A DNA stretch of 37,070 nucleotides from Desulfurivibrionaceae bacterium (lineage in GTDB: Bacteria > Desulfobacterota > Desulfobulbia > Desulfobulbales > UBA5123). A program made the position numbers and the translations under genes. The notes below the pieces were generated by a model. It made no database searches, had not been told where the DNA came from, and was given only the letters and a program-made list of their open reading frames with translations. The stretch lies in the NCBI GenBank assembly GCA_030145325.1, contig JAQYVW010000027.1, positions 1 to 37,070 of the forward strand, given 5' to 3'. How positions within the stretch are numbered: the first letter of the stretch is position 1; the number at the start of each line of letters is the position of its first letter. Of this stretch, positions 16,042 through 25,563 are shown piece by piece.

Positions 16042-17430
16042 TTACGCCCAACGATAAGTCTCCTCGGTTTCATCATCGAAACCGTCCCACAGATAAGCAT
16101 CCTCGCGTCCCTGGGCGATAACCCTGAAGGCGTAACGAGCCTGCTCCTCGTAGAACTGACAGAAAGGACTCGGCGCGTAAACAGTGCCGGAAACCTCTTT
16201 AACCTCGGCCGGACAAGGCGCACCGCAGAAATGACGGATAGCACATTTCTTACAAGGCTCGATATCCTCGGCCTTGCGCCCGGTGATCTCCTTGAACGGC
16301 TCACTAGCAAGGGCCTTGGGGATCTCATCCTTGAACAGATTCCCGCCGTTGTACTCGGGAAAACCAATGAACTCGCTACAAGGGAAGAGATCGCCGGTGG
16401 CAGCCACCGCGAAGAAACACCTACCGCCGCCGCATGGCGAGATATCGCACATCAATCGCCGCCCAGTGGGAGCAATAACTCCAGCCAGAATATTGGCGAA
16501 GTTGGCAACCACCATCTTGCGACCGGTTTTTTCATAGAGCTCATGGGTCCGATCAAGAGCTTTAAAGAAATTCTCGGTCATTACATCGTTATCAGGCTTG
16601 AGATCCATACCGCCCTTACGGGTGCAACGCACCGGATTGAGCATAATTACCTTCACCCCCAAATCGTGGTAGAAATCCACCATCTCGGTGATGTACTCAA
16701 CATTGGCGCTGGTGACAGTGGTGATCACATTCAAGGCCGGATAATCAACCAGCTTCTTGATTACCGCCACCACTTGATCAAAATAACCGGTGCCGTTCCA
16801 GTTTTTGCGGGTGATATTGGCAATCTCAGCTCTGGGAGCATCAAGAGATAGACCTATACCAACCCCATGACTGGTAAGAAACGCGATGGCTTCGTCATCC
16901 AGAAGGGTGGCGTTGGTCTGGACCCCAAAATGGAAGCGGTCGCTATACTTTTCAATCCCAGCAAACATGGATTCCCGTGCCACCATGGGCTCGCTACCAT
17001 GGAAAATCAACTGGGGCTTAGCGCCTTCCGGTAACACGGTTTTGAAATAAGCAAGCAACCGCTCCAGGGCGTCGCACAGCTCTTCCGTCGTCATGGTAAT
17101 GCCGTCTCGCCGCATCTCTTCCGGGAGATAACAATAGCCGCAATTCAAATTACACCGTTCGGTGGGATTGAAATAGGCGGCAGAAGGAGTGAGACCGAAA
17201 CGTAAGGCATCCATCTCCTTCTTGAATTCTTCCGAGCGCTGGGCGAAATCAGCTGGCAGAGATCCGGCCAGGGACTCTCCCAACTCATCTTTGTTGACCA
17301 ATGCCCAATAGGCGGTATCAGCCTCAATCACGGCCACCGTATCCGGCAGACCGATATCAAGAACCGAAAAATTAGGGCCGAAACCAGTATTGGCGTAGCG
17401 GCTATCTTCCTTTTGCGGTGCGGTTTTCAT
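16042..17430 (-). CDS. cbpB: radical SAM/SPASM peptide maturase, CbpB-like
   Basis: The 462-residue protein is predicted to modify the small peptide encoded just upstream. After an N-terminal region of about 85 residues comes the radical SAM motif CNLNCGYC (Cys93, Cys97, Cys100), then the core barrel with 'FHGSEPM' (143-149), where GGEP is usual. A C-terminal SPASM-type region has cysteines at 328, 333, 338, 351, 393, 396, 402, 406 and 424, enough for two auxiliary Fe-S clusters. The start is 10 bases after the peptide stop, preceded by GGGAGAAG. Gene order (B12 riboswitch, short peptide, maturase) matches what I recall of the CbpA/CbpB family. The radical SAM/SPASM class is certain; the symbol is likely. 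Confidence 0.85.
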   Translation of the reverse strand: MKTAPQKEDSRYANTGFGPNFSVLDIGLPDTVAVIEADTAYWALVNKDELGESLAGSLPADFAQRSEEFKKEMDALRFGLTPSAAYFNPTERCNLNCGYCYLPEEMRRDGITMTTEELCDALERLLAYFKTVLPEGAKPQLIFHGSEPMVARESMFAGIEKYSDRFHFGVQTNATLLDDEAIAFLTSHGVGIGLSLDAPRAEIANITRKNWNGTGYFDQVVAVIKKLVDYPALNVITTVTSANVEYITEMVDFYHDLGVKVIMLNPVRCTRKGGMDLKPDNDVMTENFFKALDRTHELYEKTGRKMVVANFANILAGVIAPTGRRLMCDISPCGGGRCFFAVAATGDLFPCSEFIGFPEYNGGNLFKDEIPKALASEPFKEITGRKAEDIEPCKKCAIRHFCGAPCPAEVKEVSGTVYAPSPFCQFYEEQARYAFRVIAQGREDAYLWDGFDDETEETYRWA

Positions 17431-17440
17431 CTACTTCTCC

Positions 17441-17557
17441 CTATTTGCTGCTGTCGGCCTTGGGCGCGAGCAGAATGTAGTGGGAAAGACCGGTGTTCTG
17501 ACCCAGTTGCAGGCAACGACGACGGTAGCTGATCACTTTCTTGGCACTCTTTTTCAT
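17441..17557 (-). CDS. cbpA: 38-residue precursor peptide, CbpA-like
   Basis: A short reading frame starts at the ATG at 17557, with GGAGG 7 bases upstream on the minus strand. The product has 38 residues: a lysine/arginine-rich first part (MKKSAKKVISYRRR), a single cysteine at position 15, and the core-like stretch LQLGQNTGLSHYILL at 16-30. The small size, strong ribosome binding site, position directly before a radical SAM/SPASM gene (10 bases) and placement behind a riboswitch-terminator all mark it as a RiPP precursor. Which residue is modified is unknown; Cys15 and the Gly/Ser/His/Tyr segment are the obvious candidates. The same frame stays open upstream to 17680, but that extension crosses the terminator hairpin and is not translated in this model. 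Confidence 0.82.
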   Translation of the reverse strand: MKKSAKKVISYRRRCLQLGQNTGLSHYILLAPKADSSK

Positions 17558-17612
17558 GATGTGTCCTCCGTGTAAATTAAATTTCTTCAAGCCGGACAGG
17601 TTTCCAGCCCAC

Positions 17613-17649
17613 AAAAAAACCCGAATGTTCGCGCAAGCGAGCATTCGGG
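17613..17649 (-). terminator. riboswitch-controlled intrinsic terminator in the cbpA leader
   Basis: On the minus strand CCCGAATG (17649-17642) and CATTCGGG (17627-17620) form the base of a hairpin whose stem continues for about five more pairs (one G-T wobble) to a four-base loop. It is followed at once by TTTTTTT (17619-17613). It sits between the cobalamin aptamer and cbpA, about 55 bases before the start codon. This is the geometry of a transcription-attenuating expression platform, so cobalamin binding most likely switches cbpAB off. Confidence 0.88.
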
Positions 17650-17696
17650 CACCTTTTCCATCAGTACTATACAGTAACAACTATAACATTTTATCA

Positions 17697-17880
17697 ACAG
17701 GTCTTCTGGCTCTCGGATCGTCTGTGGATCAACAGCCTTCCCCTCGCTATACTTCACGAAAGTGACCGGGCCAAAGCCCTTGAAGCCGAACCACATCCCC
17801 GATTACAGCGGCGGGACCGCCACGGATTCACACCGTGTTCCTGGATGTTGCAAAATGTGCTATTTAATTTTCAGACTCCT
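17697..17880 (-). promoter_or_regulatory. cobalamin (B12) riboswitch upstream of cbpA-cbpB
   Basis: Read on the minus strand the conserved blocks occur in the right order: GGAACACGGTGTGAATCC, GCGGTCCCGCCGCTGTAAT, and GCCAGAAGACC near the 3' end (about 17710-17700). These match the B12-box core and the 3' closing segment of the cobalamin riboswitch class. The 5' P1 strand is not clear to me, so the upstream edge is approximate. The element lies in the gap between glgP and cbpA on the same strand, and the next element is an intrinsic terminator. Confidence 0.92.
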
Positions 17881-17935
17881 ATTTAAAATATGCCAACCAG
17901 TTTGTCAAGGAAGTGCTTACAAAGCGTCCCCGTTA

Positions 17936-24921: not shown

Positions 24922-25309
24922 GACAAAAGGCGAGAAATGATCAAACTCATCACCGTGAAAAAAACATTCCTAACCATGGGTGATTTTCCCCTTGCAATAA
25001 AACAATCCACAGAGTAAGTTGTAAAGATACCTTAAATGAAATTAAGAAGAAGCTCTCTTTTGCGTTATCCTCACGTTGTTCTCCTTGCATCGTTCGCCAC
25101 CGTAGATGTTTCTTGTTTATTACTATTTTAAGGAACATGTTTGGTAAAAAAATAATTCGGAATATAGTTATCCTTCCATCAACAGGACGGAAGGATTAGA
25201 GTATAAATTCAGTTTTGGTAACAAGACTGTTGCCGACGCGGACATTACCGATTCGGCTCATTTAAAAAGCGGTTCCAAATTGGGACCCAGTGCAAAGGAG
25301 TAGTACAAG
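24922..25309. other. 388-base interval: possible leader of the cold-shock gene
   Basis: No established gene is present. A 26-codon frame at 24937-25017 is preceded by AAGGCGAG and starts 15 bases after the formate dehydrogenase operon; it is weak evidence for a micro-protein. Closer to the cold-shock gene, ATCCTTCC (25170-25177) and GGAAGGAT (25189-25196) form an 8-bp stem without a T-run. With the AT-rich surroundings this suggests a long structured 5' leader, as in many cspA-type mRNAs. Promoter position is not clear. Confidence 0.4.
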
Positions 25310-25510
25310 ATGGCAGAAGGAACAGTAAAATGGTTTAACGATGCTAAGGGTTTCGGCTTTATCGATCAAGACGGTGGCAACGATGTTTTCGTTCACCACA
25401 GTGCAATCCAAGCTGAAGGCTTCAAGTCTCTGGAAGAAGGCGCCCGGGTAACCTTCGACGTAGTCGACGGCCCTAAGGGACCTGCTGCAGAGAACGTTGT
25501 ACAGCAATAG
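25310..25510 (+). CDS. CspA-family cold-shock protein
   Basis: The 66-residue single cold-shock domain binds single-stranded RNA and DNA and acts as an RNA chaperone. Both RNP motifs are intact: KGFGFI (RNP1, residues 13-18) and VFVHH (RNP2, 27-31). The start is supported by AAGGAG 9 bases upstream. A strong intrinsic terminator follows 20 bases after the stop, so it is a monocistronic unit. Which Csp paralogue it is, and whether it is cold-induced, cannot be told from sequence. Confidence 0.97.
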
Positions 25511-25529
25511 TAGCTGACATCGACCATTG

Positions 25530-25563
25530 AAAAGACCCCGCAGACTGCGGGGTCTTTTTTTTT
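25530..25563 (+). terminator. rho-independent terminator of the cold-shock gene
   Basis: AAAGACCCCGCAG pairs with CTGCGGGGTCTTT around a one-base apex (effective loop a few bases), followed by a tract of T residues at 25555-25563. This is a textbook intrinsic terminator 20 bases after the csp stop. Confidence 0.95.

Follow-up and report, generated by a model that had tools for sequence, protein, structure and literature searches.

The stretch of DNA analysed in this work (hereafter the window) comprises 37,070 nucleotides from a Desulfurivibrionaceae bacterium and carries a small operon in which a short gene, cbpA, is followed by a gene for a radical SAM enzyme, cbpB, both on the minus strand, a point on which the original prediction had given no indication. 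The features of the locus are the following:

17679..17901, minus strand, cobalamin riboswitch aptamer (RF00174; cmscan 68.6 bits, gathering threshold 31.5, E 4.8e-15)
17613..17649, minus strand, intrinsic terminator-like hairpin with a U7 tract in the interval between aptamer and cbpA (riboswitch expression platform)
17565..17569, minus strand, Shine-Dalgarno sequence GGAGG of cbpA, with the ATG 7 nt downstream (read from the sequence)
17441..17557, minus strand, cbpA, 38-aa precursor peptide (38 codons and stop)
16042..17430, minus strand, cbpB, radical SAM/SPASM peptide maturase of 462 aa
15934..15969, minus strand, hairpin followed by a T tract 3' of cbpB, probable operon terminator (found by eye, unscored)

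The architecture originally predicted for the two genes is in place. The strong ribosome binding site of the 38-codon gene is the GGAGG listed above, exactly 10 bases separate the cbpA stop from the cbpB ATG, the CX3CX2C motif of the enzyme corresponds to C93, C97 and C100, and its nine further C-terminal cysteines are located at positions 328, 333, 338, 351, 393, 396, 402, 406 and 424. The riboswitch had gone unmentioned, and it is the strongest functional clue at the locus. As a separate observation, the window also contains at 25190-25560 a cspA-type thermoregulator leader (RF01766, 91.8 bits), probably ahead of a cold-shock gene.

The assignment of the pair to the NCBIfam family CbpA/CbpB, made in the original prediction, is supported, with the reservation that the peptide scores below the cut-off of its own model. 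CbpB scores 695.2 bits against TIGR04163 (rSAM_cobopep; cut-off 375), covering positions 2-428 of the 428 of the model, and the Pfam models Radical_SAM (PF04055, 65.0 bits) and SPASM (PF13186, 29.2 bits, cut-off 21.5) match as well, so the predicted identity as a SPASM maturase is borne out. Judged by its sequence, and with its enzyme class resting on established knowledge, CbpB is a member of the SPASM radical SAM maturase family TIGR04163. Across 42 CbpB sequences the residues C93, C97, C100, C393, C396, C402, C406 and C424 are invariant, and C333 and C351 are conserved to at least 90%. The AlphaFold (AF2) model of the protein (pLDDT 90.3) finds its best structural match in CteB (5why/5wgg, E 1e-22), the thioether maturase of the SCIFF/ranthipeptides, followed by an anaerobic sulfatase maturase, TigE, ChlB and SuiB. 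CteB and CbpB have the fold and the SPASM clusters in common and can be aligned over nearly their full length, N-terminal region included, at an identity of only about 18%; the SCIFF peptide is rich in cysteine, whereas CbpA has a single one, and we know of no B12 regulation of CteB/SCIFF. In the AlphaFold model, residues 21-78 of CbpB fold into three strands and two helices, and this region may be read as an RRE-like (PqqD-like) peptide-binding domain. A fused CbpA-CbpB model, built purely as a modelling device from a locus with both genes in one frame (L037) by reading through the cbpA stop, docked CbpA residues 1-10 (pLDDT 82) and was unable to place the GLSHY core, and thus yields no evidence on the active site.

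The translation of cbpA, MKKSAKKVISYRRRCLQLGQNTGLSHYILLAPKADSSK, has its sole Cys at position 15 and the Gly/Ser/His/Tyr core that had been described for it. Against TIGR04164 (cobo_pep) it obtains 20.5 bits, under the cut-off of 35, so that it cannot be named CbpA on that test alone. The low score is probably due to the length of the loop between the Cys and the GLSHY block, which in the window peptide belongs to the longest class (C-x7-GLSH). Nevertheless, 40 out of 40 non-redundant CbpA homologues match TIGR04164 at E < 0.01, and at each of the 70 cbpB loci whose upstream sequence extends to 300 bp or more one small ORF with the pattern R-x2-C-x5-7-G-L-[S/A]-H-[Y/F] is present upstream of the maturase gene, in nearly all cases with its own Shine-Dalgarno sequence; the original prediction had made its reading depend on such homologous peptides. 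Their alignment defines a core of invariant R12, C15, G23, L24 and H26, with S25 and Y27 at least 90% conserved. It could still be argued that cbpA is a chance ORF, an untranslated part of the leader, with another protein as the substrate of CbpB, and the score of the window peptide below the NCBIfam cut-off would agree with this. However, the invariant core recurs at every one of those 70 loci, and compared with the nearest relative (L036, whose CbpB is 93% identical) cbpA has four synonymous and zero nonsynonymous codon differences, which makes this explanation hardly credible. From these comparisons we regard cbpA as a genuine gene and treat its product, on account of its position, Shine-Dalgarno sequence, invariant core and graded relatives, as a CbpA homologue and not as a member of the NCBIfam family. 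With the same gene order and CbpA core as the 'cobopep' family TIGR04163/TIGR04164, a near-whole-model match in CbpB and a longer loop in CbpA, the window pair is a divergent member of a named family, since CbpB passes the family test and CbpA fails its own, and does not constitute a new kind. The family was likely named for a cobalamin context, judging by the word 'cobopep'.

A scan of 84,980 genomes together with a scan of 395 genomes of the phylum yielded about 70 CbpB loci, at which the riboswitch proved to be a nearly constant companion of the peptide gene. The riboswitch in the window is one of four cobalamin riboswitches in its genome, and 50 of 53 loci tested, which include one duplicate pair and loci beyond the Desulfobacterota, have a cobalamin riboswitch ahead of cbpA; the arrangement is also found in Planctomycetota, Actinomycetes, Azospira and Magnetococcales. 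Of the remaining three loci, two (L005/L077 and L006/L078) lie inside B12 operons that have a riboswitch on the same strand at their head, and the third (L057) belongs to a cobT-cobS operon on a 10.9-kb contig with no riboswitch. A strict detector found an intrinsic terminator between the aptamer and cbpA at 43 of 52 loci, where 0.25 would be expected in shuffled sequences, and a terminator is visible by eye at most of the loci missed by it. In a survey of 86 cobalamin riboswitch reporters, 38 were corrinoid-repressed, and 37 of those 38 had intrinsic terminators (PMC9600662). By analogy with that survey, and resting on established knowledge, the terminator in the leader suggests that cbpAB would be switched off when cobamide is abundant. 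As far as can be told, the conservation of riboswitch and terminator at cbpAB had apparently not been described before.

Most cbpAB operons are solitary, with no adjoining B12 gene. Those that are not have B12 genes as neighbours, and they occur in unrelated lineages. In the Desulfobacterales locus L057, the genes downstream of cbpB are cobT, cobS, a CobC/CobD-like gene and cbiB; the Actinomycetes locus L066 has the order riboswitch-cbpA-cbpB-cobT, with 12 bp between cbpB and cobT; in L077 and L078 the pair is embedded in the order cbiC-cbpA-cbpB-CbiX/CfbA-type chelatase gene-cbiM; and in three Planctomycetota loci (L060-L062) a cobU/cobT/cobS operon runs divergently from cbpAB. CobT, CbiM and CobU are identified above NCBIfam cut-offs, the chelatase and the CbiC-type methylmutase by family matches below cut-off, and the names of CobS, CbiB and the CobC/CobD-like neighbour were assigned by reading the sequences. 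Clustering of the neighbours of the roughly 70 loci revealed no recurrent transporter or exporter, protease or immunity gene beside cbpAB. Two further observations concern these surroundings: the Planctomycetota loci have two back-to-back cobalamin riboswitches, serving cbpAB and the divergent B12 operon respectively, the second being weak in L061; and in two loci from Actinomycetes (L064:9931-11199 and L065) cbpB is followed, after about 870 bp and in the same orientation, by a second CX3CX2C radical SAM gene, which by its N-terminal sequence looks like the sulfatase-maturase type.

The phyletic pattern points in the same direction as the riboswitch. CbpB was found above cut-off in 36 of the 395 genomes of the phylum, and cbiD, a gene of the anaerobic corrin pathway, is present in 35 of these 36 vs 161 of the 359 genomes lacking cbpB (p 9e-11); the sole cbpB-positive genome without cbiD is 79% complete. 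CobT was found in 38 of the 41 cbpB-positive genomes searched. Several peculiarities of single genomes may be recorded here. The genome of the window has two stretches containing cbiD (G000:C86 L120 and G000:C53 L108) that are 78% identical over 4.5 kb, which is explained either by a second cob operon or by admixture of a related strain, the stated contamination being 3.8%. A 172-aa frame in a cbiD-positive genome (G016:C14:31057-31524) matches positions 273-320 and 366-428 of the CbpB model and is possibly the remnant of a decayed cbpB. Another genome, already equipped with a complete cbpAB operon and two copies of cbiD, carries a second cbpB at a contig edge (G060:C108:3091-3861, L109).

The enzymes of anaerobic lower-ligand synthesis, BzaA/B/F, can be recognised by a second ThiC-type gene. 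Such a gene was counted in 72 of the 161 cbiD-positive genomes without cbpB and, before correction by a tree, in one of the 35 with it. An assignment of Bza through NCBIfam was tried and abandoned, because most of the paralogues score best as ThiC, and a tree was used instead. In this tree, the sampled second copies of ten cbpB-free genomes form one clade with a protein above the BzaB cut-off, the second copy of G278, the apparent exception among the cbpB-positive genomes, falls in a ThiC clade, and the ThiC genes of cbpB-positive genomes outside the phylum sample include none in the Bza clade. After tree correction a Bza-type lower-ligand synthase is found in 0 of 35 cbpB-positive, cbiD-positive genomes vs up to 72 of 161 without cbpB (p 2e-8), 'up to' meaning that only part of these 72 genomes were placed by the tree. 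Counted by family, the exclusion is 1 of 13 vs 32 of 59 (p 0.002); one family contains both cbpB and Bza, with no single genome in it having both, and the exclusion may partly be a lineage effect. In cbpB-free relatives the Bza genes stand directly behind a cobalamin riboswitch at seven out of ten loci and near cobT at seven out of ten, that is, they occupy the genetic slot that cbpAB takes elsewhere. The genome of the window has a single PF01964 gene, which lies outside the Bza clade, and CbpB itself is unrelated to ThiC. The exclusion of Bza by cbpB apparently had not been described previously, as far as can be told.

BluB makes the base DMB in an oxygen-dependent manner. It was found above cut-off in four cbpB-positive genomes (G263, G395 of Azospira, and G399 and G400 of Actinomycetes), and this coexistence argues against a simple replacement of base synthesis by cbpAB. 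Matches to TIGR02476 below the cut-off were set aside as probable generic nitroreductases. In G400, whose genome also contains the order riboswitch-cbpA-cbpB-cobT, the BluB and CobT matches fall in one 634-aa frame (G400:C169:6239-7900), an apparent fusion. A dedicated pairing of the cbp-linked CobT, beside the separate BluB-CobT frame, was considered and given little weight, because a BluB/CobT2 fusion is already known from Propionibacterium (PMC4657239). Of the 161 cbiD-positive genomes without cbpB, 89 also lack a second ThiC-type gene, so cobamide synthesis does not in general depend on cbpAB.

Taken as a whole, we consider it likely that cbpAB is a B12-repressed maturase-peptide pair of the RiPP type that serves cobamide biosynthesis, an assessment that applies to this core reading and from which the biochemical step is graded apart. 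With ample cobamide, the ligand would bind the leader RNA, the terminator would form and cbpAB would be off; with scarce cobamide, CbpA and CbpB would be produced, and CbpB, a radical SAM enzyme of the SPASM type whose N-terminal domain may resemble the RRE of CteB, would modify the short peptide. The modification, probably a cross-link, is likely to fall on the invariant Cys15, on the Gly-Leu-Ser-His-Tyr block or on both, and the product, for which a link with corrinoid or cobalt is a candidate, would probably be retained inside the cell, since the genes have no linked exporter or dedicated protease. The leading guess for the step itself is the lower ligand, to which the Bza exclusion, the genetic slot held in common and the cobT neighbours point: the product would supply, carry or activate the base attached by CobT, in the place that Bza has in other anaerobes.

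In the form we propose tentatively, CbpB would turn CbpA into the base activated by CobT, or into a carrier of that base, as an oxygen-independent alternative to Bza comparable to PQQ and mycofactocin, which are cut from ribosomal peptides. The position of cobT immediately 3' of cbpB in two phyla and the presence of CobT in cbpB-positive genomes, nearly all of them without BluB, add to the reasons already given. Against it stand, besides the four BluB genomes, the two loci where cbpAB adjoins cobalt genes instead, the lack of a linked releasing peptidase and a CbpA core without an obvious benzimidazole precursor, in which Tyr27 can be replaced by Phe and Ser25 by Ala and invariance is limited to His, Arg, Cys, Gly and Leu; moreover, cobamide producers without known base genes might use purines (PMC6461909). 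That cbpAB constitutes an oxygen-independent ribosomal-peptide route to the lower ligand, or to a cofactor for its attachment, and hence a non-homologous counterpart of BluB and Bza, we hold to be rather unlikely.

Cobalt or corrinoid handling, to which the cbiX and cbiM neighbours and the invariance of Cys and His point, ranks next, and we see it as possible though doubtful. Here the modified CbpA would, through Cys15 and His26, give cobalt to CbiX when B12 is short, or would hold a corrin intermediate with the His as axial ligand. At L077 and L078 the pair indeed has cbiC on one side and the genes of the chelatase and of CbiM, a cobalt transporter, on the other, Cys and His are residues that typically bind metals, and the lack of a linked exporter fits a product that stays in the cell; but CbpA has just one Cys and one conserved His, its binding role is putative, and the Bza exclusion and the cobT neighbours are left unexplained. 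An exported product made under B12 scarcity, either a scavenging peptide (corrinophore) or an antibiotic against B12 uptake, is compatible with B12-repressed control and with the TonB-type receptor gene at the head of the L078 operon. It is nonetheless improbable, given the neighbour clustering mentioned above, a CbpA core strongly conserved across phyla, unlike that of antibiotics, and the near restriction of cbpAB to cobamide makers.

In comparison with known systems, the Bza pathway (BzaAB/BzaF and CobT) uses the same slot in the Desulfobacterota, with a riboswitch ahead and cobT beside it, and its distribution and that of cbpAB are mutually exclusive; its enzymes, however, are ThiC-like, act on small molecules without any peptide and are unrelated to CbpB. 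PQQ and mycofactocin systems combine a short peptide, a SPASM radical SAM enzyme and a peptide-binding domain, the first two of which are shared by cbpAB, but cbpAB is not linked to any dedicated chaperone, peptidase or oxidase genes. In agreement with the original statement that the product and function of the family were undescribed, no published function for CbpA/CbpB was found, nor anything on the system under SPASM and cobalamin riboswitches or cobalt and RiPPs, in the part of the literature that was covered.

No known lower-ligand gene is present in about 42% of predicted cobamide producers (PMC6461909), a recognised gap that would be filled by a new part of the B12 pathway. The riboswitch ahead of cbpAB and the near confinement of the pair to B12 makers without known base genes suggest that it is such a missing part of B12 synthesis. 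What was an orphan RiPP pair becomes a specific prediction, namely a system switched off by B12, found almost only in cobamide makers and present where Bza is absent, which is open to test in cultured organisms, for instance Azospira oryzae and Desulfacinum. If a peptide-derived lower ligand proves true, cbpAB would serve anaerobes that have no known gene for base synthesis.
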